DNA of 64,000 nucleotides from Cordylochernes scorpioides (lineage: Eukaryota > Arthropoda > Arachnida > Pseudoscorpiones > Chernetidae), in contig CP092880.1 of the NCBI GenBank assembly GCA_030710605.1, forward strand, positions 27,557,727-27,621,726, written 5' to 3'. How positions within the stretch are numbered: the first letter of the stretch is position 1; each line of letters begins with the position of its first letter. The notes under the pieces were generated by a model, which worked only from the letters and a program-made list of their open reading frames with translations, did no database searches and was not told the DNA's origin. This document shows, one piece after another, positions 2,181 through 36,853 of this stretch. Position numbers and translations under genes: made by a program.

Positions 2181-2590
2181 ATCCCTCTAACAGACTGTTC
2201 CCACAGAAGTACTGTGAGTTTCAAGCTTTAGTTGAGGGAGGACATGTGTGTAGCACATAATACTGACCAGGTTTCTGATCTTTTTTTTTGGTAGAATCTG
2301 ACATACTTGCCATGTTCATTTATTTAAACTAACACGGAAATGGGATATTGAAATAATTATCAGAATCATTGTGGCTTCATTATACTGATTTTTTATTTTA
2401 AAAAGGAAAATACAGTAGAACCTCCTTGTAAAAAGGACACCTAATTACAGAACTAAAGTGTCCTTTAGGGAGAGGTGTCCTCTTACTGGAGAGTTGTTAA
2501 ATAGTAAAATGGTAATTTTGCAAAAGAAAATTGTTCTTTATAGAAAGGGGTGTCCGCGAAAGGGAGGTTCTGCTGTATTTATATTATATA
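2181..2590. repeat. Interspersed repeat ending in a Tigger-type MITE, copy 1
   Basis: From about 2210 to 2577 this stretch is closely similar to 21920-22306, including the shared words ggacatgtgtgtagcacata and cataatcattgtggc-like sequence. The second half is the short transposon described separately. Its non-MITE half has no coding frame that I recognise. Confidence 0.75.
2413..2575. mobile_element. Tigger/pogo-type MITE (163 bp)
   Basis: The ends are CAGTAGAACCTCC and GGAGGTTCTGCTG, an inverted pair of the type found in pogo/Tigger transposons, flanked on both sides by TA (2411-2412 and 2576-2577). It is too short to code for a transposase, so it is non-autonomous. Related copies lie at 21587-21761 and 22130-22304. 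Confidence 0.8.
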
Positions 2591-2642
2591 TATTAAAAAT
2601 GGCATATACTTACCAGAAGCACATGTTTTTACAGAAGGCAGA

Positions 2643-2656
2643 GCGCCATCTGGTGG
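2643..2656 (-). promoter_or_regulatory. CTCF-like motif in the retrozyme-like unit
   Basis: The minus strand reads CCACCAGATGGCGC, which fits the published CTCF core consensus CCASYAGRKGGCRS at every position. The match is seen in the sequence; binding is inference. The second unit has gcgcaatctggtgg at the equivalent place, one base off. Confidence 0.4.
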
Positions 2657-2737
2657 AACAGAAATCAACTAAACATTGATTTAGCCTGTTCCCTGATATT
2701 TGGCCAACCCAATTTCTTGATAAATAAAGAAAAGCCA

Positions 2738-2779
2738 TCCACGAACGCGTTTCGCGCTGTTGGCGCTCGTCAGCGTGGA
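2738..2779 (-). ncRNA. Type I minimal hammerhead ribozyme, unit 1
   Basis: On the minus strand: stem I 5' strand tCCACG, core CTGACGA, stem II GCGC-CAACA-GCGC, core GAAA, a two-base-pair helix III (AC/GT, loop GC), cleavage-site U, then CGTGGa completing a six-pair stem I. All conserved core nucleotides (C3 to A9, G12 to A14, the A15.1-U16.1 pair) are present and the position 17 base is U. Very short helix III is known from Penelope-like and retrozyme hammerheads, which are thought to act best as dimers. Cleavage is predicted between plus positions 2744 and 2743. Confidence 0.8.
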
Positions 2780-3150
2780 GTAGGCTGAACCACTGCGACC
2801 AAAAAATATTTTTTGATCCCAATGGCTTCCCGAAAAACCAAGAAATGAGTATTTAAGGCCAAACTTGCGTAAATACGCTTAGCACATTCACGCAAGCATC
2901 CCTTGCAGGGATATCGCGTCTGATTTGATAAATAAATAAATAGATACATTAAAAAACGAAAGAAAAAATAAAAGATAAAAAGATCAGGTGTTGAAATCAA
3001 TATTAAAAATGGCATATCCTGACCAGGAGCACATGTGCTTTACAGAAGGCAGAGCGCAATCTGGTGGAACAGAAATCAACTAATCATTAATTTAGCCTGT
3101 TCCCTGATATTTAGCCAACCCAATTTCTTGATAAATAAAAAAAAGCCATA

Positions 3151-3188
3151 CACGAACGCGTTTCGCGCTTTTGGCGCTCGTCAGCGTG
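3151..3188 (-). ncRNA. Type I minimal hammerhead ribozyme, unit 2
   Basis: The same core as the motif at 2738-2779 (CTGACGA, GCGC stem II with a different loop, GAAA, ACGCGTT), but stem I is reduced to four pairs because the distal base has changed. It lies exactly one 411-bp unit away from the first motif in the same orientation. Confidence 0.75.
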
Positions 3189-3323
3189 GAGTAGGCTGAA
3201 CCACTGCGACCAAAAAAGATTTTATGGTCCCAATGGCTTCCCGAAAAACCAAGAAATGGGTATTTAAGGCCAAACTTGCGTAAATACGCTTAGCACATTA
3301 AAAAACGAAAGAAAAAATAAAAG

Positions 3324-3555
3324 ACGAGCGCCAAAAGCGCGAAACGCGTTTGTGGATGGCTTTTCTTGATTTATCAAGAAATTGGGTTGGCCAAATATCA
3401 GGGAACAGGCTAAATAAATGTTTAGTTGATTTCTGTTCCACCAGATGGCGCTCTGCCTTCTGTAAAGCACATGTGCTCCTGGTCAGGATATGCCATTTTT
3501 AATATTGATTTCTACACCTGATCTTTTTATCTTTTATTTTTTTCTTTCGTTTTTT
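3324..3555 (+). repeat. Inverted third copy of the retrozyme-like unit
   Basis: This segment is the reverse complement of about 2950-3182, so the two form long inverted arms around a spacer of roughly 140 bp. The hammerhead here starts at gacgagcgcc: its CTGA start is cut off at the junction, so it lacks part of the core and stem I and should be inactive. The rest (gatggc block, CTCF-like word, gtcaggatatgcc) is well preserved. Confidence 0.8.
3438..3451 (+). promoter_or_regulatory. CTCF-like motif
   Basis: CCACCAGATGGCGC, a full match to the CTCF core consensus, in the inverted retrozyme-like copy. Confidence 0.4.
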
Positions 3556-4050
3556 AATATATATATATATAAATTTGAAATAACTAAAAATATATTTCTA
3601 TATTGTAAATTAAAAAAAGAAAAGATTATTATTCATTTCAAAGCGTTTGATTTCTAAACAGCCTGGGTAAAAAAACAATAACATTCACGACATTCACAAC
3701 GGCATTGCAAAGTGAAACTTAAACTGCCCAGAAACCAAAAGTGGGCAGGCGCGATCCTAAAGTTTGCTTTTCGGCGGATGCAACTCATCTCTGTAATACC
3801 TTGTTAGTGGTAAAGTTGTAGGTAAACAACAATCAACTGTCAAAATTTGAAGGATCGAGTTATCTGAAGTGTCGAATTATCGATAGGGTCGAATCACTGT
3901 TTGTTATTTTTATAGGCTGGAGGACGGGACATCAAACCATGGTCAAATTATCGTTAAGTGTCGAATTATCGTGTGTTGAATTAATATATATTAGGTTATA
4001 CTGTATATATTTATAGAGATCCTGCCCAAAAGTCCTCCTCTAAATGACGG
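3556..4050. other. AT-rich spacer with a pogo-type terminal remnant
   Basis: An (AT)n run lies near 3560. Around 3830-3899 the minus strand reads CAGTGATTCGACC, then repeated ATAATTCGACA words and TTGATTGTTGTTTA. The same word series occurs inside the Helitron copies at 22998-23090 and 25255-25325, and looks like the terminal inverted repeat of a pogo-type element. No coding frame is supported. Confidence 0.4.
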
Positions 4051-4239
4051 GCGGGAGAAGCAGTACAAGTAAGGGACTGCCCTGTAGTACGGTGTTGTGA
4101 GCCCCGAGCTGCTACGGTAACCGTGAACTGGGAACTCTGAAATGTGGCTGAATAATGGGGCAATGGCACCCTCCCTTTCCATTGAGCAACAATATCCTCT
4201 TAGAAGATAAAATTGCTAAAGAGTATAAAGTAAGAAAAT

Positions 4240-4427
4240 AAACAGTAGCAAGGTGTTTCTTTATTCGTGCAAAGTACAAACTTTCGGATCTTTATATTCC
4301 TTCTACAGACATAGCTTTAAGTTGATAGAATCATCATTTCCTCAACTTATAGCTATGTCTGTGGAAGGATTATAAAGATCCGAAAGCTTGCACTTTGCAC
4401 GAATAAAGAACCCCTTGCTACTGTTTA
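4240..4427. repeat. Palindrome with hammerhead-like cores on both strands
   Basis: Arms of about 85-90 bp (from aacagtagcaaggtg to cccttgctactgtt) face each other. The plus arm reads CTGTGGA-A-GGAT...ATCC-GAAAGCTT at 4359-4389, and the minus arm reads the same with CTGTAGA. This has the layout of a hammerhead core, but A6 is U and an extra A precedes stem II, so catalysis is doubtful. A paralogous palindrome lies at 50830-51022. Confidence 0.6.
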
Positions 4428-4770
4428 TTTTATTACAACATTTTCTATCTTGGTTGATTCCACATTAAAATAATTACTCATATTTTGAAACTCTCCACAA
4501 TGTGACGCAAATGTTGGTACCTTCATGGGTTTGGAAGTTCTGTTCAGACAGGGAATGAGTTGTCAGTTACAAACCGTGGTAATTATATGGAACATTGTCT
4601 ATGGATAATGGTATGTGCAATAGGACATTCCAGTTTTGTGCTTTTAACATGTTCTTGACCGCTTTTGTAACATGTGCCATGTGCATGGAAAATCACTTTG
4701 TCATCTGCTTTTATGTCTTTTGATATCTCCCTGATTTATTCCTCGCCAACTACTAATCCCTACATATCTA

Positions 4771-6107
4771 CGAGGGTTGTCCGTTAAATAAGTTCCACGG
4801 GACACCACTGTCATGAGGATCGCTTTTAGGCTCGAGCCGACTGCACGGGCTCGTAGCTTGTTCTCCCCACTCCAATTTCCCACCAAAGACACGTCGCTGG
4901 TAAGCTTAGTTTTGGCTGAGCAGCCGTTAGTGATGGAGCTTCCCCTCGTGTCTCCCGCCAGCTGCAAAATACGGTCAGTAATTCGCTTTTTGGCCGCAAA
5001 GAATAATTCGGCGAAGGACATTCATACTGAACTCTGTCAAGTGTATGGAGAAGGGTGTATGAGTTCAGGGATGGTGCGCAGATGGGGCAGAGAATTTAAA
5101 AACGGCCGAACAGACGTCCACGATGAACCGCGTGCTGGACGGCCATCGGTTTCGGACGAAACCATTGCCAAAGTCGAAGCGGCAATGCTTGAAGATCGAC
5201 GGGTTACTGTGCGGAAGCTCTGCGATTTGGTTCCTGATGTCAGTAAAACCACCATCGACAAGATTTTGCGTGAACATTTAGGGTATTCAAAGGTCTGTGC
5301 AAGATGGGTTCCGAAAATTCTGACTGAAGACCATAAACGGTAGCTGGTTGATGCGGCCCAGAAATTTCTCGATTGCCACAAAACTGACGGAGAGGAATTC
5401 TTGGATTCGATCGTTACTGGTGATGTGACCTGGGTACACTACACCACACCGGAGACAAAGGAGCAATCCAAGAAGTGGAAGCACACTTATTCGCCGAAAC
5501 CTCTAAAGTTTAAACAAACACTTTCTGCCGGGAAACTTATCGCTACCGTCTTTTGGGATCGAAAGGGTCTATTGTTGTGCGACTTTATGCGTCGGGGTAC
5601 AACAATCAATTCCGACCGGTACTGTGAAACCTTGAAACAACTTCGACGCGCGATTCAGAACAAGAGGAGAGGGATGTTAACCAAAGGGGTGCGTTCACAC
5701 CACGACAACGCTCGGCCGCACACCGCCCATCAAACCACTGCCCTCGTCGAAGAATTTGGATGGGAATTGGTGTCACACACACCCACCCTACAGCCCGGAC
5801 GTAGCTCCTAGTGACTTTCATTTCTTCCCCGAGTTGAAGAAAAACTTGGGTGGAACCCAATTCCAGGACGATGACGAGTTGGAAGAAGCGGTTTTAGGCT
5901 TTCTACGCGGCCAGGCGGCGGCAGGGTTCTTTGACTCTGGGCTTCATAAGTGGGTGTCCCGAATGCAAAAATGCGTCGAAAGAAACGAGGAATATGTAGA
6001 AAAATGAAAAAAAGTCTGATATTTTCGAAAATGTATAGTTCAGGGCAAATAAACCTGTTTTTCTGTATGAAAAACCTCTGTGGAACTTATTTAACGGACA
6101 ACCCTCG
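4771..6107 (+). mobile_element. Full-length mariner transposon (1,337 bp)
   Basis: Inverted termini CGAGGGTTGTCCGTTAAATA and its complement end at 6107, with TA on both sides (4769-4770, 6108-6109). The paralogous repeats at 34786 and 51366 keep the uninterrupted target (acatatctatctca), which proves the insertion. It encodes one transposase, now broken. Confidence 0.95.
4933..6007 (+). pseudogene. Mariner transposase, two inactivating changes
   Basis: The start chosen is the ATG at 4933 (MELPLVSPASC), since the upstream part of the frame is not transposase-like. The order is an N-terminal HTH region with the second helix around EFKNGRTDVHDEPRAGRPS, then the catalytic region: first Asp in TGDVTWVHY, second in HDNARPHT, third in YSPDVAPSDFHFF, giving a DDD triad of the mariner type. 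A TAG stop interrupts it at 5341-5343 after EDHKR, and a frameshift falls at about 5760-5790, just before the third catalytic Asp. It ends with TGA at 6007. The protein would have cut and pasted the element through its termini; this copy cannot make it whole. Confidence 0.95.
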
Positions 6108-7720
6108 TATCTCACAGATCATCCCATCTCCCATAGTGCCCCATTATCTAAAAAGGAGCCAGTGCTGCCGTCCCACCAGACCTACACTTTAAATGCATTT
6201 GAAACTCCGCCTTTGTCGGTCCCAAGCCCGGATGAAAAAGGAGGAGAGGGAGCAGTAACAAGCTTGCTAAAAACCTGGGTTCATCTGGCCTGGCTAATAG
6301 TACCTTGTAAGGGCTTCTAATCCAGGGATACAGGATGAGCAGCGTCTGTACTCCATGTTAGGAGCGGCTGCACATGGCGTCTGTTCCTCATGTCAGAGAC
6401 GGCCATTTCATTGGAGCTAAGTCGGCCTGCCACTGAGTAGCGCTCTTGATAACAAAGGTAGATGCATTCTACTTCACTCAGTCATGATGGTTGTCAATTC
6501 TACAAGCTTGATACCCTAATATGATTGAGGGAAAATAAGAAAGAAGAAGAGAAATACATTTGAAGTAATAATTAGATGCTCATTTACTGTAGTCGCACCC
6601 TACTTCATTGATGCCACAAATATTCTATTTCAAGATATTGAAAACCCTTCAAACATTTATTTACTCTTTTCCAAGGGAGTTAAAAATTTATATACCGCAT
6701 AAATGCCAAGTTATAAATAAGGGACTCGGTGACATAGGAAGGGACCTTAAAGAAAGACAATTACCTAAATGTTAACTAGACATGGTAAGGGCTCCAGGTG
6801 ATATCTAGATACATAACACAGAAGGGGTTAGATGTATACTATACTATCTCACACCGTCATGTATTGCTACACCCCTGACCCCAACTTCCCAATTCCGGCA
6901 GCTCGCTGTAGTGTTTCTATTGACAACAAAGTGGAATGGAGCGGACAAGAGACTGAAAACAGCACTGTTGGACACCGACAACGCTGAAAGCCGGACTTAC
7001 GTCTACACGCGAGGCCTCCCGTCGGAGTTTTGCGCCAGAGCCAACAGCCTAGTAATCAGTACCTAGTCCTAGGTCAGTGGAGCGAGCAAGCTATCGGAGG
7101 GGAAGTTGAGTATCATTCCACGCTATGTGAATACACAGGGTTAAAGTAGTAGGGTTCCCACCCCCCTTCCCAGCGTGGAAATGACCAATGACCAAAGCGG
7201 AATAGTCTAGGGCGGCTAATCGTCGCAGTGGCCACCACAGGGGTGTAAGCACTAAACACCGACCCGCTGTCAATGTCCAAGTACTGTCTAGTCACTATCT
7301 AGATCCTGCAACAATGGCATTAATAGAGCCAGATCGCAGGGAAGTCACACTGTGGGTCTCTCCATCTGGAACATCTGTTACACACAGCAGCCTAGAATTC
7401 AGACTTTACGTTTAACAGATTGTTATTGTCACCGAGTCCCTTTTTTATTCTTGGCATTCAAGCAGTTTGTGGGTTTTTTATCTTACCAGATTCTTGGTAA
7501 TTTGAATTAGAAAGGTTTAAACTTCACAATAAGAGCTTTCAACTAAGACAAATAACTAAACACATTTTTGTTGTTACCAACCAATTAATGGAGCAGTTCT
7601 AACAGCACCACAAGACACCAAATCCATCCAAGAACCACAAGAAATCTTACAACCTCTAGATTCAATTCGCATTTCTTCAAGGTATATATATGAAACTCGG
7701 TCGCAGTGGTACAGCCTGCT

Positions 7721-7760
7721 CCACGCTGACGAGCGCCAACAGCGCGAAACGCGTTCGTAG
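7721..7760 (+). ncRNA. Minimal hammerhead ribozyme motif in composite copy 1
   Basis: CCACG-CTGACGA-GCGCCAACAGCGC-GAAACGCGTT-CGTAG. The core and stem II are canonical and helix III is the two-pair type. Stem I has one mismatch (cgtag instead of cgtgg). It is followed by the same gatggctttt..ttggccaaatat block seen downstream of the motif at 2738-2779. Confidence 0.7.
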
Positions 7761-8046
7761 ATGGCTTTTCTTAATTTATCAATAGGTTGGCCAAATATTA
7801 GGGAACAGGTTATATCAATGTTTAGTTTATATCTGCTTCACTATATGGCGCTCTGCCATCTAAAAAGCACATGTGCTTCTGGTCAGGATATGCCATCTTT
7901 ATTTTTAATATATGAAACTATGTCAGGGATATGGTTAAAATAATGTAAAATGGTTTCCAATATATATGTGGATGATACCACCATTCTTCATTAAAAGGTA
8001 ACTGTATAGCCACAAGGTGTTAAGACCAAATCCAAATAAATAAATA

Positions 8047-8090
8047 TTTTTGACGTTTCTGTTACAGTGTTGTTACCATCATCAGACAAA
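8047..8090 (-). ncRNA. Hammerhead-like motif, CTGATGATGGTAAC family
   Basis: The minus strand reads TGT-CTGATGA-TGGTAAC...GTAACA-GAAACGTC. The core words CTGATGA and GAAA and the short helix III are present. An extra T lies between A9 and stem II, stem II has a mismatch and stem I is weak, so it is probably decayed. A half copy in the opposite orientation follows at 8102-8120. The family recurs at 28611, 29424, 29820, 30004 and 61759. Confidence 0.5.
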
Positions 8091-8271
8091 AGAACTGAAT
8101 CTGTCTGATGATGGTAACATGGTTATAGGATGTTAATAAAGTTAATTAAACAAATTATAATTAAATATTTACAATAACACATTAATATATAGTCACGACC
8201 GTCTGTCGTGGCCTCTGTCACGGATAATATACAGTTATCATCGTCATGCGTTATTAATTCTGTCACCGTTT

Positions 8272-8340
8272 GCTTTTGGTTCAGTGGTAGAATGCTCGCC
8301 TGCCACGCGGGCGCCCCGGGTTCGATTCCCGGCCGATGCA
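8272..8340 (+). pseudogene. tRNA-Gly(GCC)-like sequence inside a Helitron
   Basis: Box A (TGGTTCAGTGG), an anticodon arm with GCC, and box B (GGTTCGATTCC) are intact, and a T-run terminator follows. The 5' acceptor strand reads gctttt rather than the complement of the 3' strand ccgatgc, so the acceptor stem cannot form. It looks like a captured tRNA gene or a tRNA-derived promoter, not a working tRNA. Confidence 0.8.
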
Positions 8341-8619
8341 TTTTTTTTTTTTTTTTACAATTTTTAAAACTCATTTATATATTATACAAGAATGACATCC
8401 ACGGCGCCAATTTATAATTGTAACGAATAGTATTTGAATAAAAGCATTTAATCGGGTAAACCCCGGGCGTTGTAGATTATAAACACAAGGTAATAAGACC
8501 GCATCCATGATAAGGTACAGTTTGGAATATAGATTATATATAGTCACGACCGTCTTTCCTCAATTCCTCATCGCTGTCAAGGATGCGCGCGCATCATCAT
8601 TATGATCATTATCATTATC

Positions 8620-8672
8620 TAATGATAATAATAATAATTATTATTATTATATTATTATTATTATTTTATTAT
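8620..8672. repeat. (AAT/ATT)n microsatellite
   Basis: A run of aat units followed by att units, self-complementary and able to fold. It lies inside the second Helitron fragment. Confidence 0.9.
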
Positions 8673-8990
8673 CAACATATATAGTCACGACCGTCTTTCC
8701 TCAATTCCTCATCGCTGTCACGAATGCGCGCATCATCATTATGATCATTATCTTCTATAGAAGCTTCTATCTTTATAATTATGTATATTTACAAAAAGTC
8801 AATTCGCTCGCGACTCTAGCGGTAAAAATTAAGGTTAATACCAGCTGACCTAATGTACATGTAAAGTTTGGAGCGGGAGGTTTACAAGAGTGACATCCAC
8901 GGTTCCAATTTATAATTGTAACAAATAGTATTTGAATAAAAACATTCAATCGGGTAAAACACGGGCGTTGCCCGGGTCATTAGGCTAGTA

Positions 8991-9389
8991 GATTATAAAC
9001 ACAAGGTAATAAGACCACATCCATGATAAGGTACAATTTGGATTATAGATTATAAACACAAGGTAATAAGACAATATCCATGATAAGGTACAGTTTGGAT
9101 TATAGATTATAAACACAAGGTAATAAGACCACATCCATGATAAGGCACAATTTGAAATTTAGATTATAAACACAAGGTAACAAGACCACATCCATGATAA
9201 GGTACAATTTGGATTATAGATTATAAACACAAGGTAACAAGACCACATCCATGATAAGGTACAGTTTGGATTATAGATTATAAACACAAGGTAATAAGAC
9301 CACATCCATGATAAGGTACAATTTGGATTATAGATTATAAAGACAAGGTAACTAGACCACATCCATGATAAGGTACAGTTTGGATTATT
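8991..9389. repeat. 57-bp minisatellite, seven copies
   Basis: The word gattataaacacaagg recurs at 8991, 9048, 9105, 9162, 9219, 9276 and 9333, exactly 57 bp apart. The unit also occurs singly at 8474-8531, and its parts occur next to the hammerhead-like palindromes at 29505 and 30075. Because 57 is a multiple of three, it leaves a spurious repetitive open frame on the minus strand. Confidence 0.95.
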
Positions 9390-9397
9390 AATATATA

Positions 9398-10816
9398 CAC
9401 TGCGTGACATTGAAAATGGAACACCAAGAAATAGTGGCCAGAAAATTATGCAAATTTCAGGGTAGACGCGCCTAACCGAGTTATGCAAATGATGTAAAAT
9501 GCGCAGCTCTCGTGCGCACATGGAGTAAGATATAAGGGAAGGAACTTGCAGAAAGGACAGTATTCGTGTCATTATTTCTTCAAGGAAAATCATTGTAGAA
9601 ATTTTGTTCTTGTGTCAAAAGACACGTGTAATAACAGAGAATGCCAGGTCATCGTAAACGGAGACAGTTCAAGCAGACAGACGCTTTTACGAGGGGCATG
9701 GTGATCGGACTGAAAAGGTCAGGTTGGTCCATACGTCAAATCGCAGCTGATACACACCTTGGTGCGTCCACGGTGCACCGACTGTGGAGAAGATGGTTGG
9801 AACAAGGAAATGTGGCAATTTATAGGAATGTCGGTGCAACCAGAGTGACGTCAGCACGTGTGGATCGGCGTATCCTTCGACAAGCAGTGGCGGCCCCACA
9901 AGCCACTTGTACCGCCATCCTGCAACATGTGCAATACACCTTAGATCATTCCTTCTCGACCAGAACCATTTCCCGTCGATTGGTTGCTAATGGCTTGCAC
10001 TCATGCCGTCCGCTAAGAATACTGCCATTGACCCCACTGAATAGGCGCCAACGTTTGGAATGGTGCCGGGCTAGATCGACGTGGATGACGGAATGGCACA
10101 GGGTCGTGTTCTCAGATAAGTCGCGTTTCTGCTTGTCCAGTGATAGTCGCCGTGTACGCGTGTGGCGTCGACGTGGAGAAAGGTCCAATCCGGCAGCAAT
10201 TGTGGAACGCCCCACCGTGCGACAACGTGGAATCATGGTTTGGGGCGCAATCGCGTATGATTCCAGGTCACCTTTACTTCGTATTCAGGGCACTATGACG
10301 GTCCAACGATACGTTGATGATGTGCTGCGACCGGTGACACTCCCCTACCTTCAGGGGGTACCCAATGCCCTTTATCAGCAGGATAACGCCCGACCGCACA
10401 CTGCTCGCATTAGCCAACAAGCTCTGCAAGATGTACAGATGCTTCCCTGGCCACCGTACTCTCCTGATCTCTCACCAATCGAGCACGTCTGGGACATCAT
10501 TGGACGCCGTTTGCATGCCTTGCCACAGCCACGTTCAGAAGACGAACTGTGGCAAATGGTTGAGAGGGAATAGAGAGCCATCCCTCAGGACGCCATCCGC
10601 ACTCTGATTGACTCTCTACCTAGACGTGTTGCTGCGTGCATCGCCGTCCGCGGTGGTCCTACTTGCTACTAAGCCGACGCCGTTCTCGCTCTGTATTATG
10701 ACTATCATTTCGAAATAAAGATCACGTATTGTTCATCCCTGTCTCTCTATGTCTGCCGAGTTTCATCACTTTCTGGCCACTATTTCTTGGTGTTCCATTT
10801 TCAATGTCACGCAGTG
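9398..10816 (+). mobile_element. Tc1-type transposon (1,419 bp)
   Basis: The termini CACTGCGTGACATTGAAAAT and its complement end at 10816 and are flanked by TA on both sides. The inverted repeats continue as ggaacaccaagaaatag. The element separates the 57-bp array from a Helitron fragment that starts tagtcacgacc. Confidence 0.95.
9641..10672 (+). pseudogene. Tc1 transposase, one premature stop
   Basis: The frame starts at MPGHRKRRQF and reads without a break for 310 residues. It has a paired-type HTH (GMVIGLKRSGWSIRQIA, then GASTVHRLWRRW) and a catalytic triad: Asp159 in VVFSDKSRF, Asp248 in QQDNARPHTA and Glu281 in SPIEHVWD. I count 32 residues between the second and third catalytic residues. 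A TAG at 10571-10573 interrupts it after VERE; the frame then continues about 32 residues (RAIPQDAIRTLID) to TAA at 10672. All catalytic residues precede the stop, so the copy is nearly intact and looks young compared with its neighbours. Confidence 0.9.
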
Positions 10817-11116
10817 TATAGTCACGACCGTCTTTCCTCACCGGCCGCCTCTGTCACGGATAATATACAGTTATCATCGTCATGCGTTCTTAATTCTGTC
10901 ACCGTTTGCTTTTGGTTCAGTGGTAGAATGCTCGCCTGCCACGCGGGAGTTCGATTCCCGGCCGATGCATTTTTTTTTTTTTACATTTTTTAAAACTCAT
11001 TTATATATTATACAAGAATGCCATCAACGAGGCCAATTTAAAATTGTAACGAATAGTATTTGAATAAAAGCATTTAATCGGGTAAACCCCGGGCGTTGCC
11101 CGGGTCATTCGGCTAG
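10817..11116 (+). mobile_element. Helitron-type copy with a complete 3' end
   Basis: It starts tagtcacgaccgtc, shares the body of the copy at 8192, contains a tRNA-Gly-like segment, and ends with ccccgggcgttgcccgggt, cattcgg and CTAG at 11116 followed by T. Sequence after 11117 resumes the composite repeat found elsewhere without this insert. Confidence 0.75.
10908..10969 (+). pseudogene. tRNA-Gly-like remnant, deleted
   Basis: The same tRNA-like sequence as at 8272-8340 but lacking bases between gcggg and ttcgattccc, so part of the T arm is gone. It cannot fold as a tRNA. Confidence 0.8.
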
Positions 11117-12660
11117 TGTTATATATTTATCAATGTATGTAATTCTTCTGTTCTCAAAGCTAATGTCCATAGTTCATCTAAAATACCTATTCCAAGAGAC
11201 TAGCATCAGTATCACTATAAAAGTAAGATCAATAAATGCAATATAACAGCGGCATGGTAGATTACACTGGCAAAACCGCTTGGAGGGTTCACACCTGATG
11301 AGCCAGGCCCTTCCATTAATTTTTCCATTGCAGTTAGGGCAGTAGAGATGTTTATTTTTAAAATGAATCGTACGCGAGTATAATAGTTTCAAATTTTAAA
11401 CACATGTATTATTCGACAGAGTTCATAAAATTTATATAGACAAAGTGGCAGATGTAAGAGAGTTAAATGATTTAGATCAGGGAACAAATAATGTCTCACT
11501 TCTGTAGAGTTGAGTATGGTTTAGTTGAGATGTCTTCTGTGTGGATATATCTGATATAAAATCCTACCTGATTTCTTCAACATCGTTGATTTAAATTTGC
11601 ATTGAATTAATTGCTTTAACTTTTAAATTCTTGTTGGGATCTTATGTGCATATAATAATCTGGATTTTATTGATTTATCAAGAAAATGGGTTGGTCAAAT
11701 ATCAGGGAACAGGTCAAATTGTTCCACTAGATGGCGCTCTGACACCTAAAATCACATGTGCTCGTGGTCAGGATATGCCTTCATTATTTTTAATATCAAC
11801 ATCTGACCTTGTTTCTATTGTTTTTTTTTTTCATATAATAATCTATTGAGCTTCTTGCTGAATTTCTTAAGATTCCAACTTGAGATATCTTAATTCTTCT
11901 TATCACTATTAAAGATTTCAAGATCAGCGGAATTATACAGGTTCCATATTTGTTGTATGAATAGTTTCTGTTACCTATGGTACTTAATTCTTCCACGTTT
12001 TCTTATTAAATATTTCCATTTATTCTATATTTGTTGTCGTGAAGAATCCGATCTTCGAAATAAGTAAATTACAACAAAATATCACAGATAATCTCATAAT
12101 GTATCAATGTTTTCTTCTTCTTCAAAACTTGGTACTATGAATAAAGATTTCTTTTGTACTAAATACAAATTTTTTAACTCTAATAATTCGATTAGACAAA
12201 TTATAAAATAAAATTTAGAGAAAAAAGAGATATAAATATGATTAACTTTAATAGTTTGAAATTGTATCTTTTTTTCTCTAACTAAAAACTACCATTGTTG
12301 TTACACCAAATCTATGATTTTTTTAAATAAAATAAAGACATGGCTATAGACTTAAATATATTCATATTATTATTTTTACATGGATATTAAGAAATTGCCT
12401 AGTTCAGTAATGTTATTTTCCTCTAATATTGCGCTACATTAGTGGTCACTTCAAAGATATCAATCAAATCTAGTTCTTAAGATCTTTGGTATTTTTTAAT
12501 ATTTTAAATATGAAATTATCTGATTAATTTACACGAGATGATATCAAATATATGAAGGAAATAATTTTCCATAAGATTTTGCCAAAGCAAATACAAATTT
12601 TACTGCATTTAACTTTTACATAGATATAGGTTTGCCTATGTTTTATGAGAGACATTGCAG
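11117..12660 (+). repeat. Composite repeat, copy 1, second part
   Basis: The block 11130-11400 (ccattgcagttagggcag and neighbours) also appears at 36600-36850 and 62040-62320. The block 11430-12660 (gatatatctgatataaaatcc, attgagcttcttgctgaatt) also appears at 37265-38758, 39591-40675 and 62340-63230. A hammerhead-less fragment of the retrozyme-like repeat lies at 11640-11790. AT-rich; no protein recognised. Confidence 0.75.
11724..11737 (+). promoter_or_regulatory. CTCF-like motif
   Basis: CCACTAGATGGCGC, a full match to the CTCF core consensus, in a retrozyme-like fragment that lacks its hammerhead. Confidence 0.35.
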
Positions 12661-12780
12661 ACAGTGTTGGAGGGAAAGCTCCGGGGGAAGAGATCGAGGG
12701 GAAGGAGACGACAGGGATACATAGACGATCTAAAACAATGGACTGGACGACACGAGGAGATGAAGAGGATGGCGGAGGGA
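12640..12780 (+). pseudogene. C-terminal tail of a LINE reverse transcriptase
   Basis: One frame reads GKLRGKRSRGRRRQGYIDDL, followed by KQWTGRHEEMKRMAEGV and a stop. Arg-rich GxRxRGRxRxxWxDD-type tails followed by a WTG motif are typical of the C-terminal end of many LINE polymerases. Only this tail remains, directly before the 55-bp array, whose unit continues the same sequence. A second tail, cut by a Copia LTR, is at 63230-63294. Confidence 0.75.
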
Positions 12781-13395
12781 GTATAAGGAAACCATGTGGC
12801 CCACCCTCAGTAGAAGAAGGCACTGAAGGAGAGAGATATGGAGAGACCATGTGGCCCACCCTCAGTAGAGGAAGGCACTGAAGGAGAGAGATATGGAGAG
12901 ACAATGTGGCCCACCCTCAGTAGAGGAAGTCACTGAGGAGGGAGATATAGAGAGACCATGTGGACCACCCTCAGTAGAGGAAGTCACTGAAGGAGGGAGA
13001 TATAGAGAGACCATGTGGCCCACCCTCAGTAGAGGAAGGCACTGAAGGAGGGAGATATAGAGAGACCATGTGGACCACCCTCAGTAGAGGAAGGCACTGA
13101 AGGAGGGAGATATGGAGAGACCATGTGGCCCACCCTCAGTAGAGGGAGGCACTGAAGGAGGGAGATATGGAGAGACCATGTGGCCCACCCTCAGTAGAGG
13201 AAGGCACTGAAGGACGGAGATATGTAGAGACCATGTGGCCCACCCTCAGTAGAGGGAGGCACTGAAGGAGGGAGATATGGAGAGACAATGTGGCCCATCC
13301 TTAGTAGAAAAAGTCATTGAAGGAGAGAGATATGGAGAGACCATGTGGCCCATCCTTAGTAGAAGAAGGTATTGAAGGAGGGAGATAGGGAGACA
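12779..13395. repeat. 55-bp minisatellite, array 2
   Basis: About eleven copies of the unit found at 1700-2180, with variants in the ggaagg(c/t)a(c/t)tga segment. It follows the LINE tail without a break, and is followed by a Tigger and an internally deleted LINE. Confidence 0.9.
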
Positions 13396-18965: not shown

Positions 18966-19497
18966 GCCGTGACAACGTGAGAGAGAGATATGGAGAGACC
19001 ATGTGGCCCACCTTCAGTAGAGGAAGACATTGAAGGAAGGAGATATGGAGAGACCATGTGGCTCATCCTCAGTAGAGGAAGACATTGAAGGAGGGAGATA
19101 TGGAGAGACCATGTGGCCCACCTTCAGTAGAGGAAGACTTTGAAGGAACGAGATATGGAGAGACCATGTGGCCCACCTTCAGTAGAGGAAGACATTGAAG
19201 GAAGGAGATATGGAGAGACCATGTGGATCATCCTCAGTAGAGGAAGACATTGAAGGAGGGAGATATGGAGAGATCATGTGGCCCACCCTCAGTAGAGGAA
19301 GACACTGAAGGAGGGAGATATGGAGAGACCATGTGGCCCACCCTCAGTAGAGGAAGACATTGAAGGAAGGAGATATGGAGAGACCATGTGGCTCATCTTC
19401 AGTAGAGGAAGACATTGAAGGAGAGAGATATGGAGAGACCATGTGGCCCACCTTCAGTAGAGGAAGACATTGAAGGAAGGAGATATGGAGAGACCAT
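18966..19497. repeat. 55-bp minisatellite, array 3
   Basis: About ten copies of the same 55-bp unit as arrays 1 and 2, in the same orientation. Two sub-variants alternate (gcccaccttcagt and gctcatcctcagt), suggesting higher-order duplication of unit pairs or triplets. It begins directly after the LINE 5' end. Confidence 0.9.
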
Positions 19498-21586
19498 GGA
19501 AGCAGATTGACTAACCGCTAGATATTTATCAACCCCTTTTTGTTCGCACTTGAACAATCTGCATCGAGCGACACAGTTCGCCCCTTCTTCTCGCGCCACA
19601 CGTTCGCCACACGGACCCTGTCTTCAAATCTACGTTTGTCCATTGTCCAAACCAGCACGATATAGCCTACCTCCGATATTTCCCACGGAGGTACGTTAAA
19701 CATCGTCGCTGATTCTGTCCGGTCCTTCATCATTTCGCGCAGACATGGGTCTTACTTTCAACCCACCGCGAAATCATCGCCTTGCACAAGCTCCCACGAC
19801 GGTTCAAACACCTCGTGTCCGAGCAGCTTGTCACTTGTAACGGACAACGCAGTCCTTGTCCCAATTTTTGGCACTGTGCGCGCATACTTTCCGCAAATTG
19901 AATATAAGTCCGTTCGACTTCCTCACCTATAAAAGGGACTTTTCCCCTCGGACTCGCTACACAAGTAGCTACATAGATAAGTTAGATTGGCCCAAAGCAA
20001 GTCTCCCCTCGCTCTGTTCGCCGAAATTCTAACATTGTATGTAGTTTCGATATTTACCTCAGTCCTGAGCTCACACAATTGCCAGCCTCAATCTCATTTC
20101 TCGTACTCTACACCTATAGCATAGAAAGCCCATGACAAGTTTCCCCTTGCCATGTCCGCCTGAAAAATAGCTTAAAGTGTAGAGTTCCCCAGTCTTAATG
20201 ATCTTCAGAATTTCATCATATGTATGTGACTCTTCTTCTCGTTGTTCACACTCCTCCATATCACTTCCCTTATAGTACATTAGATTTTGTTGTATATAGC
20301 CTTTTATAACCTGGATATTTTCAAATATTTCCTTAAATGTCAAACTCCCCGGTGTTGTAAAACTGCTTGTAAATAATATTTACTTGTGTACAATACAATA
20401 TTTTATTTACATAAAACTATGTCACCATTACCTTAACTAATTTTAACTGTAAAACTATTTTCTCTATTCCTGGCTTCTCCAGCTTTAAATATACTTAAAC
20501 TATGTTCAGCCTTCTTCAACGGGGGCCATATGTCATAATATATGTTCTTCCAGGATTAATAAAACAAACCAACAGCCAACGAGAGAGAAATGGGCAGCTA
20601 AAGCGGGACACTTTAGACAACTAACTAACGACCATTTTTTGGCCACATTCCTGAGGGGGGCGTCACCACCTGGCGACTATCCTGATTAGCCCCCGGTTGT
20701 GTACACAGGAAAAACAGTCGTTCAGCAGATAACGTCTCGCTCGCTCTCTCTCGGCTGGCTGCCTGGATTATTGCTCTAACAACTCATCGTGTGATTATTT
20801 CTCACCTCACCACATCATTACCACTATATTGTCACATATATATATATATGGTAATATTTGAACCAGCAACCTCATATTGTTTAATACTTATAACAAGATT
20901 TTCATGTTGTATAATCGAAACACATCTGTAAATAATTATACGCATGATTGACCTGTGTCATTACATCACCATAGGTAATGTACTTTGTACAAACTGAGGA
21001 TAAATAAATAAAACTCTGTAATAGATTAAGAGTTGAGCTAAAGCGGAGATCGAGATGTAGCAGTTCCACAACAAAGTCTAAATATAGGAAATTGCCAGGG
21101 CATTGCCAGAGTATAAAATATCGCTTCCGATCCACGCTCTTGTTGCATCCGCTGAAATTCAATATTTCCTCTCTTAGCAAAGATATATAAGACCTTCGCC
21201 CTAGCTGAAAAAATAGTCACTTCACCATCAGCGTGAGCCCTCGTCGGTTGTACCCAGGTCCCCCTCATCGACCATGTAGAACAGTAAGAACTCTTCTATC
21301 TCCATCTTGCTCCTAGCTCGGCTCCTATCTGTTCACAGAACTTTCCTACTACAACTGTGTCTCTTCGTTTTTTGTTAATGGACATTCCCAAGCTTTCCAC
21401 TCTGCCTTGACCACGAGTGCCTGTACTCTGTGAGAACTGTAAAGGTCTTCCAAGGTGCAGAGAGGTACTGGAAAACTCTCCACGCCCTGACTGTTAATCT
21501 CGGTTATCACACTAGAGCGAGAGTCGACAGGATCGCACACCATAGATTAAGTCGACTGGATACCTCATCGCCTATACATATAAATA
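19498..21586. other. Poorly characterised stretch, possible unique DNA
   Basis: Two minus-strand open frames occur, 71 residues (19518-19733, starting MMKDRTESATMF) and 90 residues (20071-20343, starting MTFKEIFENIQVIK, acidic middle EECEQREEE). I recognise neither family. At 19836-20034 a segment starts TGTAACGGACAACGC, holds tataaaaggg and ends TTCTAACA, so it could be a solo LTR, but no convincing target duplication flanks it. A (TA)n run lies near 20838. This is the only long stretch here without clear paralogues elsewhere in the window, so it could be host intergenic or intronic DNA. Confidence 0.35.
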
Positions 21587-22339: not shown

Positions 22340-22437
22340 TCTATGTTGTAAATTAAAGTGCCCATTGCAGGAATCGAACCCAGGTCGTAGCGGTCGAAAA
22401 CCAACAGTTTAGACCATCCTTATATTATAAAATGAAA
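22340..22437 (-). mobile_element. tRNA-derived SINE-like repeat
   Basis: On the minus strand: box A-like ggtctaaactgttgg, then ttttcgaccgctacgacc and box B gggttcgattcct. It is related to 42476-42660. A degenerate tRNA body rather than a gene. Confidence 0.6.
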
Positions 22438-23593
22438 CTAGCCGAGTGACCCGGGCAACGCCCCGGGTTTACCCGAAGGACCCGCAGGTGAGAAACTATA
22501 GAAGAAATATTTTAACAAATCAGAAAATGAAATTGCAAACAACAGAACTACACTACTTTAAGGACATGAGAGCACATGCACTGTATCACCATACGTGTAC
22601 CATTTTCAAAGACCCTGCTTAGGATTAAAACTTCTCAGAAGCATAACAATAGTACCAACCTAGAGGTTAACTGGTGTGGATGCATTCCTCTGGGAGTGAG
22701 ACTATTGAGAAATTCAGTAGGGAGTTATTTTGCTTCTCCGCATTCTAACACTCCAACTGTTAACACTGTGGAAACACTGACTCATGTTTGGTAAGCAATT
22801 TCAGGGAAGAAACTATAGACATTGGATTAAATAAATTATTAATTAAATTGCATTAAATAAAAATTATTAGATTTAAATAAATATTATTAGAGTGAAAAAA
22901 AAAGAAAGAAATTAACAAATTAGAAAATAAAATTTCGAAAAATACAACTATATTGCAGATAAGATAAGAGGACCTTATTAAAAAATACATAAACAAACTG
23001 TAATTCGACACTCGATAATTCGACACTTTCGATAATTCGACACTTTCGATAATTCGACCATTTTAAAAATCAAATTTACAAGGTTGATTGTTGTTTAAAT
23101 ACAACTTTGGTTTTGCATGCATAAACACAGGCTCTTGTAGCAAGAACCCAAATATTATTTATAGTCATAGCAAAAGCCAACTTTAGTGAAAACTGATGCC
23201 TTTTCAGAATGAATGGAAGACTGAAATCTGAAGGAGCAGAAGATATGGGTCATTTATACTTTCACCAATGCCTTTAGGATCTTTGCGATGGAACGCGTAT
23301 GGTGTTTCAGCGCATGTGCTCTCATGTCCTTGAAGCACATATACTGACAGTGCCCAAAGTTGAACACACTGTATAGTGTCTGAAATATCTTTGGCCCCTT
23401 CGGATACCAACCTTCGCTTCATTCTAGAAAGGCGTTAGTTTTCAAGTCATATTTGTAATATAGTTTTGTTGTTTGCAATTTTCTTTTTTTTTTCCTTTCA
23501 AATATGTATCCACTCTGAAATATAGTTTGTAAATTTTTATTCCAATTTATTTTCTTATATATATATGCATTTTTTTTTCATTTCCAAAATATT
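22438..23593 (-). mobile_element. Helitron copy, left arm of a palindromic cluster
   Basis: The 3' terminus lies at the low coordinate: CTAG at 22438-22441 (minus), with the GC hairpin cccgggcaacgccccggg just inside. The body is the reverse complement of 24735-25882, forming arms of about 1.15 kb. It includes a pogo-type terminal remnant (22998-23090) and a decayed helicase segment around 23100-23190. Confidence 0.75.
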
Positions 23594-24719
23594 TATTTAT
23601 ACTTTCACCAATGCCTTTAGGATCTTTGCGATGGAACACGTATGGTGTTTCAGCGCATGTGCTCTCATGTCCTTGAAGCACATATACTGACAGTGCCCAA
23701 AGTTGAACACACTGTATAGTGTCTGAAATATCTTTGGCCCCTTCGGATACCAACCTTCGCTTCATTCTAGAGAGGCGTTATTTTCACTAAGGTTGGCTTT
23801 TGCTATGACTATAAATAAGGCTCAAGGCCAAACCTTGGCTACAAGAGCCTGTGTTTACGCACGGACAACTTTATATGTGGCTTTTTCAAGTGTGCGAACA
23901 TTGGATAGCATACATGTAAAGATGACCCATATCTTCTGCTCCTTCAGATTTCAGTCTTCCATCCATTCTGAAGAGGCATCAGTTTTCACTAAAGTTGGCT
24001 TTTGCTATGACTAAAAATAATATTTGGGTTCTTGCTACAAGAGCCTGTGTTTATGCATGCAAAAGCAAAGTTGTATTTAAACAACAATCAACCTTGTAAA
24101 TTTGATTTTTATAATGGTCGAATTATCGAAAGTGTCGAATTATCGAGTGTCGAATTACAGTTTGTTTATGTATTTTTTAATAAGGTCCTCTTATCTTATC
24201 TGCAATATAGTTGTAATTTTCGAAATTTTATTTTCTAATTTGTTAATTTCTTTCTTTTTTTTCACTCTAATAATATTTATTTAAATCTAATAATTTTTAT
24301 TTAATGCAATTTAATTAATAATTTATTTAATCCAATGTCTATAGTTTCTTCCCTGAAATTGCTTACCAAACATGAGTCAGTGTTTCCACAGTGTTAACAG
24401 TTGGAGTGTTAGAATGCGGAGAAGCAAAATAACTCCCTACTGAATTTCTCAATAGTCTCACTCCCAGAGGAATGCATCCACACCAGTTAACCTCTAGGTT
24501 GGTACTATTGTAATGCTTCTGAGAAGTTTTAATCCTAAGCAGGGTCTTTGAAAATGGTACACGTATGGTGATACAGTGCATGTGCTCTCATGTCCTTAAA
24601 GTAGTGTAGTTCTGTTGTTTGCAATTTCATTTTCTGATTTGTTAAAATTTTTCTTCTATAGTTTCTCACCTGCGGGTCCTTCGGGTAAACCCGGGGCGTT
24701 GCCCGGGTCACTCGGCTAG
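23594..24719 (+). mobile_element. Helitron copy, centre of the cluster
   Basis: 23594-23778 repeats 23256-23435 directly. From 23780 the orientation flips to plus, running through a helicase remnant and ending at CTAG (24719) after the hairpin ccggggcgttgcccggg. Successive insertion or recombination of Helitrons would give this arrangement. Confidence 0.7.
23793..23990 (+). pseudogene. Helitron helicase fragment (motif V/VI region)
   Basis: The frame MAFAMTINKAQGQTLATRAC, followed by LYVAFSSVRTLDSIHV, matches the pattern of the C-terminal motifs of Pif1-type helicases in Helitrons (FAMTINKxQGQT ... LYVAxSRV). Only this end remains. Damaged versions of the same words (KVGFCYD in another frame) recur at 23985 and 25130, showing that the copies derive from one autonomous element. 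Confidence 0.75.
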
Positions 24720-24734
24720 TAAATAAATATTTTG

Positions 24735-25882
24735 GAAATGAAAAAAAAATACATATATATATAAGAAAATAAATTGGAATAAAAATTTACAAACTATATT
24801 TCAGAGTGGATACATATTTGAAAGGAAAAAAAAAAAGAAAATTGCAAACAACAAAACTATATTACAAATATGACATGAAAACTAACGCCTTTCTAGAATG
24901 AAGCGATGGTTGGTATCCGAAGGGGCCAAAGATATTTCAGACACTATACAGTGTGTTCAACTTTGGGCACTGTCAGTATATGTGCTTCAAGGACATGAGA
25001 GCACATGCGCTGAAACACCATACGCGTTCCATCGCAAAGATCCTAAAGGCATTGGTGAAAGTATAAATGACCCATATATTCTGCTCCTTCAGATTTCAGT
25101 CTTCCATTCATTCTGAAGAGGCATCAGTTTTCACTAAAGTTGGCTTTTGCTATGACTATAAATAATATTTGGGTTCTTGCTACAAGAGCCTGTGTTTATG
25201 CATGCAAAAGCAAAGTTGTATTTAAACAACAATCAACCTTGTAAATTTGATTTTTAAAATGGTCGAATTATCGAAAGTGTCGAATTATCGAAAGTGTCGA
25301 ATTATCGAGTGTCGAATTACAGTTTGTTTATGTATTTTTTAATAAGGTCCTCTTATCTTATCTGCAATATAGTTGTATTTTTCGAAATTTTATTTTCTAA
25401 TTTGTTAATTTCTTTCTTTTTTTTTCACTCTAATAATATTTATTTAAATCTAATAATTTTTATTTAATACAATTTAATTAATAATTTATTTAATCCAATG
25501 TCTATAGTTTCTTCCCTGAAATTGCTTACCAAACATGAGTCAGTGTTTCCACAGTGTTAACAGTTGGAGTGTTAGAATGCGGAGAAGCAAAATAACTCCC
25601 TACTGAATTTCTCAATAGTCTCACTCCCAGAGGAATGCATCCACACCAGTTAACCTCTAGGTTGGTACTATTGTTATGCTTCTGAGAAGTTTTAATCCTA
25701 AGCAGGGTCTTTGAAAATGGTACACGTATGGTGATACAGTGCATGTGCTCTCATGTCCTTAAAGTAGTGTAGTTCTGTTGTTTGCAATTTCATTTTCTGA
25801 TTTGTTAAAATTTTTCTTCTATAGTTTCTCACCTGCGGGTCCTTCGGGTAAACCCGGGGCGTTGCCCGGGTCACTCGGCTAG
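24735..25882 (+). mobile_element. Helitron copy, right arm of the cluster
   Basis: Near-identical reverse complement of 22438-23590, ending at CTAG at 25882 followed by T. The 3' hairpin and the cactcgg spacer are identical to those of the centre copy. The satellite starts directly after its end. Confidence 0.75.
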
Positions 25883-28460
25883 TATGTATATAAAAAAGCA
25901 AAGCCCAATTCTAAACCCAAATATTTTTTTTTATGAGAAGAACATCAACATATTGCATGATTACGGCAGTCCATAGCTTCCCTGACAAAAATTCACCAAG
26001 AAAGTTAAATATTCCAAAATTTTTCTGTGTGTAAATTGCTAAATATGTAAAAAACATGTATACAAAAAAGCAAAGCCCAATTCCAAACCCAAATATTTTT
26101 TTTATGAGAAGAACATCAACATAATGCATGATTACGGCAGTCCATAGCTTCCCTTACAAAAATTCACCAAAAAAGTTAAATATTCCAAAAATATTTCTGT
26201 GTATATATTGCTAAATGTGTAAATAGCATGTATATAAAAAAGCAAAGCTTAATATTAAATTTCATTATCCTTTCCACAGGAAAAGCATCAAGATACTGCA
26301 TAAGTACGGCACTTTTGCAGCCGCATGATTACGGCAGTCCATAGCTTCCCTGACAAAAATTCACCAAGAAAGTTAAATATTCCAAAATTTTTCTGTGTGT
26401 AAATTGCTAAATATGTAAAAAACATGTATACAAAAAAGCAAAGCCCAATTCCAAACCCAAATATTTTTTTTATGAGAAGAACATCAACATAATGCATGAT
26501 TACGGCAGTCCATAGCTTCCCTGACAAAAATTCACCAAAAAAGTTAAATATTCCAAAAATATTTCTGTGTATATATTGCTAAATGTGTAAATAACATGTA
26601 TATAAAAAAGCAAAGCTTAATTTTAAATTTCATTATCCTTTCCACAGGAAAAGCATCAAAATACTGCATAAGTACGGCAATTTTGCAGCCGCATGATTAC
26701 GGCAGTCCATAGCTTCCCTGACAAAAATTCACCAAGAAAGTTAAATATTCCAAAATTTTTCTGTGTGTAAATTGCTAAATATGTAAAAAACATGTATACA
26801 AAAAAGCAAAGCCCAATTCCAAACCCAAATATTTTTTTTATGAGAAGAACATCAACATAATGCATAATTACGGCAGTCCATAGCTTCCCTGACAAAAATT
26901 CACCAAAAAAGTTAAATATTCCAAAAATATTTCTGTGTATATATTGCTAAATGTGTAAATAACATGTATATAAAAAAGCAAAGCTTAATTTTAAATTTCA
27001 TTATCCTTTCCACAGGAAAAGCATCAAAATACTGCATAAGTACGGCACTTTTGCAGCCGCATGATTACGGCAGTCCATAGCTTCCCTGACAAAAATTCAC
27101 CAAGAAAGTTAAATATTCCAAAATTTTTCTGTGTGTAAATTGCTAAATATGTAAAAAACATGTATACAAAAAAGCAAAGCCCAATTCCAAACCCAAATAT
27201 TTTTTTTATGAGAAGAACATCAACATAATGCATGATTACGGCAGTCCATAGCTTCCCTGACAAAAATTCACCAAAAATGTTAAATATTCCAAAAATATTT
27301 CTGTGTATATATTGCTAAATGTGTAAATAACATGTATATAAAAAAGCAAAGCTTAATTTTAAATTTCATTATCCTTTCCACAGGAAAAGCATCAAAATAC
27401 TGCATAAGTACGGCACTTTTGCAGCCGCATGATTACGGCAGTCCATAGCTTCCCTGACAAAAATTCACCAAGAAAGTTAAATATTCCAAAATTTTTCTGT
27501 GTGTAAATTGCTAAATATGTAAAAAACATGTATACAAAAAAGCAAAGCCCAATTCCAAACCCAAATATTTTTTTTATGAGAAGAACATCAACATAATGCA
27601 TGATTACGGCAGTCCATTGCTTCCCTGACAAAAATTCACCAAAAAAGTTAAATATTCCAAAAATATTTCTGTGTATATATTGCTAAATGTGTAAATAACA
27701 TGTATATAAAAAAGCAAAGCTTAATTTTAAATTTCATCATCCTTTCCACAGGAAAAGCATCAAAATACTGCATAAGTACGGCACTTTTGCAGCCGCATGA
27801 TTACGGCAGTCCATAGCTTCCCTGACAAAAATTCACCAAGAAAGTTAAATATTCCAAAATTTTTCTGTGTGTAAATTGCTAAATATGTAAAAAACATGTA
27901 TACAAAAAAGCAAAGCCCAATTCCAAACCCAAATATTTTTTTTATGAGAAGAACATCAACATAATGCATGATTACGGCAGTCCATTGCTTCCCTGACAAA
28001 AATTCACCAAAAAAGTTAAATATTCCAAAAATATTTCTGTGTATATATTGCTAAATGTGTAAATAACATGTATATAAAAAAGCAAAGCTTAATTTTAAAT
28101 TTCATTATCCTTTTCACAGGAAAAGCATCAAAATACTGCATAAGTACGGCACTTTTGCAGCCCCCCTGACAGAAATTCACTAAAAGAGGTAAGTATTCAA
28201 AAAAATATTTTGGTATATATATTGCTAAATGTGTAACAAACATGTATATAAAAAAGCAAAGCTTAATTCTAAGTTCTAATATTTTTTTTATAAGAAAAGC
28301 TACAAAAGCAAATAGGGAGAAGTGAAGCCATTTAGCCATTTTCAAAATCTGATTGTGAAAGAGTAAAAAAATGAGTAAATAAGAGCAAATATAAAGAAAA
28401 AGTATTGCTAAATGTGTAATAAACATGTATATAAAAAAGCAAAGCTTAATTCTAAGTTTT
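25883..28460. repeat. 368-bp satellite with two diverged half-units
   Basis: The period is 368 bp: the word gcagccgcatgattacggcag recurs at about 26318, 26686, 27054, 27422 and 27790. Each unit comprises two related halves of about 171 and 197 bp, both with gcaaagc(cc/tt)aat and ctgacaaaaattcacc. Adjacent units are nearly identical, so the array has been homogenised. The right end (28160-28460) decays into diverged half-units. The regular 79-residue minus-strand frames are by-products of the repeat and not genes. Confidence 0.95.
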
Positions 28461-31575: not shown

Positions 31576-31899
31576 ATATGTGAATAACTCATATATATAT
31601 ATATTATTAATTGTTCCAATTATCATGAACTAGGTTGTTTTTGTTGAGCGGTACCTAATAAAGTTATTTTGGAACCGGAATTTACATATATGGATAGCTT
31701 TATACTTGATTAATTATGTATGGGTGTTTGCCCAATTCGGGAAAAAATCAAAATTTTGCTGAAAATTAGATATAAACCTCAAAGAAAAAAAAAACAGAAA
31801 TTGAAATATCTCAATACATCTTTGGATGCCAGTATATTAACGAAGAAAGAGAGATGTTCTTCTTAAAAGTAAAAACGACATCCAACTTACCTCGTGACA
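31571..31899. other. AT-rich spacer
   Basis: An (AT)n run near 31593 and otherwise no recognised feature before the LINE. Confidence 0.5.
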
Positions 31900-33700: not shown

Positions 33701-33724
33701 AAATGTTTATCTGTATTTATAAAT

Positions 33725-36416: not shown

Positions 36417-36458
36417 TCCACGCTGACGAGTGCCAACAGCGCGAAACGCGTTCGTGGA
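36417..36458 (+). ncRNA. Type I minimal hammerhead ribozyme, composite copy 2
   Basis: tCCACG-CTGACGA-GTGC-CAACA-GCGC-GAAA-CGCGTT-CGTGGa. The six-pair stem I and all core bases are intact; stem II has one G-T wobble. Predicted cleavage after the second T of GTT. Confidence 0.8.
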
Positions 36459-36853
36459 TGGCTTTTCTTAATTTATCAATGGGTTGGCTAAATATCAGGA
36501 AACAGGTTATATCAACGTTTAGTTGATTTCTGTTCTACTAGATGGCGCTCTGCCATCTAAAAAATCACATGTGTTTTGGTCAGGATATGACTTCTTTATT
36601 TACTTATGTCCATAGTTCATCTAAAACACCTATTCCAAGAGCATTAGTATCACTATAAAAGGAATATCGAAAAATGCAATATAACAGCGGTATGGTAGAT
36701 TAAACTGGCGAAACCGCTGGGAGGGTTCACCACTGATGGGCAAGGCCCTGCCATCAATTTTTCCATTGCAGTAAAGGCAGTAGAAATTGTTTATTTTTAA
36801 AAAGAATCATACGCGTCTATAATAATTTAGAATTTTATAAACACATGTATTAT

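Follow-up and report, generated by a model that had tools for sequence, protein, structure and literature searches.

Penelope elements have been proposed, as candidates only, to be the mobilisers of retrozymes in the available parts of PMC7229834, PMC7761336 and PMC8969392, and mobilisation of retrozymes by Penelope is also proposed in PMC11722881. As far as the accessible text of PMC3846280 describes it, a typical Penelope copy consists of an ORF between two direct pseudo-LTRs (pLTRs) and an adjacent inverted pLTR, head to head being the commonest inverted arrangement; one inverted pLTR optionally carries a 31-bp tail, and the copies described with a target duplication have one of 8-10 bp, some copies being without one. 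Penelope protein in purified form has been shown to cut the two DNA strands and to extend each of them, favours AT-rich DNA and starts copying inside the RNA, where two adjacent sites account for the tail (PMC11167929).

The locus considered here lies in a 64-kb window (the whole stretch of DNA that was analysed) from the arachnid Cordylochernes scorpioides, in which the insert at about 2590-3557 consists of two direct units and an adjacent inverted partial copy, placed head to head. Its features are:

2585-2593: left border of the array, TATATATAT, with an overlap of 4 nt into the end of the unit; possible target duplication (9 bp) of low complexity
2590-2997, minus strand: unit 1 (u1), with the 3′ end at site 1 = GCCATTTTTAATAT
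2998-3322, minus strand: unit 2 (u2), a direct tandem copy that has lost 62 nt internally, ending at the inverted junction at about 3310-3323
3323-3557, plus strand: unit 3 (u3), an inverted partial copy ending at site 2 = CGTTTTTTAAT
3558-3566: right border of the array, TATATATAT; possible target duplication of low complexity
2724-2789, minus strand: hammerhead 1, with its core at 2744-2773 and cleavage predicted to fall after 2744 in the minus-strand reading
3135-3200, minus strand: hammerhead 2, with its core at 3155-3184 and cleavage predicted to fall after 3155

The direct repeat (2628-2888 and 3039-3299) has a spacing of 411 and an identity of 96%, with blastn giving 94.7% identity over 300 positions. 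The 62 nt absent from u2 are present in u1, and two repeat families are found, spaced 411 and 349. The inverted copy u3 starts inside the hammerhead core (GACGAG), is 95% identical to u1 across 183 bp and extends past the end of u1, while at the junction about two bases, as judged by eye, are common to both sides. The longest stop-to-stop frame is at most 89 codons, no frame of at least 130 aa was found in 2590-3557, and the array has no RT or GIY-YIG ORF that would mark a Penelope-like element. The two head-to-tail non-coding minus-strand units reported in an earlier note on this DNA are thus borne out, but its account of two copies holds only for the tandem pair, as the inverted third copy (3323-3557) of the same insertion was overlooked. 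The GC content of the unit (38.4%) and of the array (38.9%) is below 50%, but as that of the window is 37.7% this is not distinctive. Taken as a circle (410 nt), the unit is predicted to fold with 58.5% of its bases paired. In a comparison of shared variants among u1-u3, aimed at deciding whether the template was circular or a linear oligomer, 15 of the 184 shared columns are variable; only two of these join u2 and u3 against the outgroups, one of the two with the outgroups split.

Both hammerheads align with the whole of the Rfam model Hammerhead_HH9 (RF02275, 1-77 of 77), the match at 3135-3200 scoring 30.2 bits and that at 2724-2789 scoring 28.9 (E-values 3.5e-5 and 8.7e-5 in a scan of 1.4 kb, 0.0016 and 0.004 in that of the whole window), but neither reaches the gathering score of 52, and a default Rfam scan therefore omits both. 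Two microRNA-precursor models outscore HH9 in the 1.4-kb scan (44.3 and 42.2 bits, far below gathering); it is the long inverted repeat that these models match. A descriptor of the motif, made up of CUGANGA, stem II, GAAA, UH and a stem I of at least four pairs, has three matches in the window, in both units and in a relative at 36423, compared with two in 60 random 64-kb sequences of the same dinucleotide frequencies; when it is relaxed to a three-pair stem I, the window has four. The hammerhead claimed for each unit, with cleavage sites 411 nt apart, is borne out by the HH9 matches together with the descriptor, and the RNA predicted to be released is therefore 411 nt long.

The core of motif 1, found by the descriptor, its stem II of GCGC/GCGC, which has a five-base loop, and its stem I of six pairs (four in motif 2) are also as the earlier note gave them. 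The two-pair helix III that it proposed is rejected, since two bases are too few for the loop of such a hairpin; GAAA is followed by CGCGUU, and helix III is actually one A-U pair capped by CGCG, which sits within the self-complementary AACGCGUU. According to the part of PMC7229834 available, invertebrates typically have a longer helix III, and a short one of this kind is found in the axolotl ribozyme HHR_Amex1, whose cleavage is poor in the single form and improved in dimeric constructs. The two are alike in the one-pair helix III with a palindromic tetraloop, for which a dimer is expected to be needed (PMC7229834), and differ in the host, an amphibian as against an arachnid here, the likeness being one of described structure. 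The double-hammerhead fold of u1 and u2 is predicted at -28.9 kcal/mol and the single hammerhead folds at -13.3 and -8.3; non-hammerhead folds are predicted to be more stable, both for the single motifs (-20.3 and -18.2) and for the pair (-47.4 kcal/mol). The hammerheads would most likely act pairwise via the self-complementary AACGCGUU, which suggests that dimer-type hammerheads, known from amphibians, may occur in an arachnid retrozyme too.

A profile search of the window returned 12 matches at E ≤1, 11 of them at E ≤1.6e-9, ten of the 12 having belonged to the training set of the profile; the two exceptions are 30799 (E4) and a weak further match to the retrozyme profile at 31278-31346 (E 0.0015). 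The relatives of the array are single copies, not tandems, and the four further ones (E1-E4) are probably separate insertions:

7699-7911, plus strand: E1a, a single-copy relative with a hammerhead and the duplication ATATATGAAACT, its 3′ end lying at site 1
36388-36601 and 61402-61623: paralogues of E1a
11661-11831, plus strand: E2a, a relative that has no hammerhead but the duplication CATATAATAATCT, its 3′ end falling within the T-rich stretch that precedes site 2
from 37502 and from 62658: paralogues of E2a
36869-37053, plus strand: E3, a diverged relative with a decayed hammerhead-like core (by eye)
30799-30951, plus strand: E4, a diverged, tail-only relative

Self-comparison of the window revealed paralogous blocks in collinear order at three places (approximately 4051-12706, 32393-38560 and 49301-63294), so the E1 copies (7699, 36388, 61402) represent one insertion and the E2 copies (11661, 37502, 62658) another, and the three plus-strand hammerheads are one old insertion duplicated. 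A hammerhead forming the 3′ end of a 1.8-4 kb twister-carrying element was considered and rejected, as the long matches are these blocks. Also rejected was the unit as the start of a Penelope ORF, the frame being open in u1 and interrupted by stops in u2, E1d and E3, with other frames of E1c also stopped. By eye, E2 starts 3-7 nt after the hammerhead cleavage point and E4 near it, starts that would fit a cleaved template, though the boundaries of both are too soft to carry such a reading. A conserved fold of the tail is suggestive only: among 11 rows standing for five insertion events, two-sided change was seen in 4 of 19 pairs and the covariation score of 0.208 was reached by none of 500 shuffles, while the pairs with two-sided change were matched in 31 of the 500 and the further pair types in 121, and the z-scores of single rows range from -3.03 to +0.38.

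The window contains several other repeats. The paralogous blocks are interrupted by later insertions (mariner, minisatellite, Gypsy and Penelope). Twister-P1-like matches occupy the same place in the three blocks on the plus strand (6198-6252, 34879-34933 and 51459-51513; 40.9, 36.6 and 28.9 bits, gathering score 67.2) and are possibly an RTE relic, RTE retrotransposons being described as carrying a twister at the 5′ end in the accessible text of PMC7761336. A 368-bp unit is repeated six times at 25955-28162 with matches of 99%, inverted copies adjoin it in 22437-25892, and no Rfam match was found in this region at E ≤0.5. The same 55-bp minisatellite occurs at 1700-2181, 12774-13393 and 18985-19498.

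A Penelope-like insertion is present in the same window:

57046-60274: Penelope-like fragment lying inside a Gypsy element, in the second of its LTRs; 12-bp duplication ATGAAAAATAAT
52198-52272, plus strand: empty target site of the Penelope insertion, its intact counterpart in the first LTR

The 12-bp duplication was verified against this intact empty site. The fragment is a near-perfect palindrome made of two head-to-head arms, which are 98.8% identical over 1192 bp and each have a minimal hammerhead-like core (by eye); the left arm carries a one-sided tail of about 34 nt absent from the right one, and the copy starts lie about 48 and 82 nt after cleavage, as counted from the strings. The GIY-YIG domain was matched with E-values of 3.2e-4 and 1.6e-3 (21.4 and 19.2 bits, under the Pfam cut-off of 22.6). 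Being truncated, the fragment is not itself the helper. Of the 16 matches in a search with it, 15 are in C. scorpioides, with an RT domain in eight of the 16, a GIY-YIG domain in three and both in two, so Penelope relatives abound in the host; in the search with the Pao fragment, all five matches are in the same species. No match between the unit and this Penelope was found in the window self-comparison (E ≤1e-10), and the unit's own search gave a single 19-base AT-rich match to it with an E-value of 0.16.

Target duplications were assessed against 3000 random placements of the same spacing in the window, minisatellites included, by counting those with a repeat as long or longer. The 9-bp border repeat of the array is AT-only and ambiguous (10 of 3000). 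The 12-bp duplication ATATATGAAACT of E1 is found in two of the three paralogues (57 of 3000 for E1a and 36 for E1d), with no exact duplication in E1c (541), and the 13-bp duplication CATATAATAATCT of E2 likewise in two of three (27 for E2a and 18 for E2c), with no exact one in E2d (1492). E3 and E4 have no exact duplication (569 and 2996 of 3000), and for the 12-bp duplication of the Penelope fragment none of the 3000 placements gave one as long.

As to the 3′ ends, u1 and E1 share exactly the end TTTTTAATAT, termed site 1, 154-165 nt after the cleavage point. As counted from the strings, the end of u3, site 2, lies 50-53 nt beyond it, and E2 ends in the same T-rich stretch, 33-36 nt beyond site 1 and 14-20 nt from the end of u3. 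Site 1 is therefore exact in two insertions and site 2 is common only approximately, the array contributing one end to each. Both u2 and u3 read straight through site 1, which therefore lies within the unit.

As far as sequence can be used to judge it, the array is to be classed as an animal (non-LTR) retrozyme, and the retrozyme-like identity put forward for it in the earlier note is supported by the features of that class that can be examined at this level. The non-coding units are in tandem at a spacing of 411 nt, within the 150-450 bp or so of the class, and their frames are unconserved; a type I hammerhead with a conserved core is present per unit, at a score below Rfam gathering; and duplications of more than 4 bp accompany E1 (12 bp) and E2 (13 bp). 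In plant LTR retrozymes, a class also marked by a PBS and a PPT, the hammerhead is of type III and is carried in the LTRs and the duplications are of 4 bp, as against type I and 9-13 bp here. In viral contigs the 30-base hammerhead pattern had no match and the 17-base tail pattern had two (L001, L002), the matches covering only 14-24 bases. In the accessible text of the open-licence literature searched, neither retrozymes inserted in inverted form nor retrozymes of arachnids were found to be described, which is weak evidence of absence.

The insertion anatomy, the exact reuse of site 1, the target duplications and the similar build of the Penelope fragment nearby are seen in the DNA itself, in a few independent insertions (the array, E1, E2 and two old ones) of one window. 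It is, on the whole, somewhat better than an even bet that the retrozyme was inserted here as one event, giving two direct units and one inverted unit, and was copied by a reverse transcriptase with Penelope-like habits. That the element is transcribed, cleaved and circularised, and which enzyme copies it, we infer along the following lines. A transcript of at least two units would fold its hammerheads, most likely pairwise via AACGCGUU, and cleavage would release a 411-nt RNA, which a host tRNA ligase could circularise. The enzyme would then start copying inside the unit, primed from AT-rich nicked DNA, either at site 1, about 155 nt after cleavage, or in the T-rich stretch 33-53 nt further (site 2). 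If both target strands primed a copy, the cDNAs would meet head to head, leaving direct copies and an inverted copy.

A LINE instead of Penelope may have mobilised the retrozyme, the inverted copy then being due to twin priming on an oligomeric transcript during target-primed reverse transcription. LINE twin priming yields inverted 5′ parts and similar duplications, and here the order in the RNA sense is the inverted part and then the direct part, the duplications are of 12-13 bp, and RT-like frames near 31800-32800 resemble, by eye, a LINE remnant. Twin priming has no fixed second site, however, whereas the outer end of the inverted arm falls in the T-rich stretch where E2 independently has its 3′ end, 14-20 nt away; the local Penelope shows the same plan, and the frame 32334-32762 has no match to any Pfam family, which leaves the LINE unconfirmed. 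A LINE origin is accordingly regarded as unlikely, though well worth keeping in mind. Somewhat further from the evidence is the suggestion that the unit is a pLTR of an unseen Penelope family, an ORF-less derivative and not a retrozyme in its own right. Its size, hammerhead, inverted extra copy and tail would fit a pLTR as the available part of PMC3846280 describes it, and retrozymes have been suggested to arise by Penelope reduction (PMC11722881, in the part accessible), but the direct copies follow each other at 411 nt and enclose no ORF, the hammerhead has a four-pair stem II, a six-pair stem I and an outer stem as against the minimal Penelope-type one, no conserved frame runs through it, the frame being broken in several copies, and the unit has no match to the Penelope of the window in the self-comparison, so such a derivation is improbable. 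Tandem and inverted duplication at the DNA level (satellite growth or an assembly artefact) with no RNA step is very improbable despite the richness of the window in minisatellites and palindromes, as one outer end of the array lies exactly, and the other roughly, where independent insertions end beside target duplications, and dispersed single relatives exist.

For copying by an enzyme with Penelope-like habits, then, the insertion anatomy lends circumstantial support by analogy, both to the published proposal that Penelope mobilises retrozymes and to the earlier naming of Penelope-like elements as candidate helpers. It is tentatively suggested, at a little less than an even chance, that animal retrozymes in general are short interspersed parasites of Penelope-like elements, made up of a hammerhead and, after it, a folded module of RNA to which the Penelope enzyme would bind. 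Copying would start at preferred sites inside the unit, and their insertions would therefore copy the direct-plus-inverted plan and one-sided tail of Penelope. Were this true, the window would provide evidence for such a link at the level of insertions, and insertion ends together with inverted copies offer a signature by which the Penelope-helper proposal is testable in a genome assembly.

The array invites comparison with two known kinds of element. With the animal non-LTR retrozymes of Cervera and de la Pena (2020, PMC7229834, in the part available) it has in common short non-coding tandem units, type I hammerheads, a GC content below 50%, the absence of LTR features, duplications of more than 4 bp and co-existing Penelope elements; its 411 nt are at the top of their size range, and an inverted third copy is not described in that part of the report. 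From Penelope it differs in having no ORF, a fuller hammerhead and no sequence match to the Penelope of the window, in its tail of 50-53 nt as against the published 31 bp (PMC3846280, accessible part), and in its copy starts at about 155 and 205-208 nt after cleavage as against about 48 and 82 in the local fragment. Its plan of direct and adjacent inverted terminal copies with an optional tail is nevertheless that of Penelope, e.g. of Pen2a_Av (PMC3846280, as far as accessible) and PAc (PMC11167929), which the array resembles in the two direct copies and one adjacent inverted copy placed head to head, the optional tail at one end, the short target duplications, the AT-rich targets and the hammerhead upstream of the copy start.
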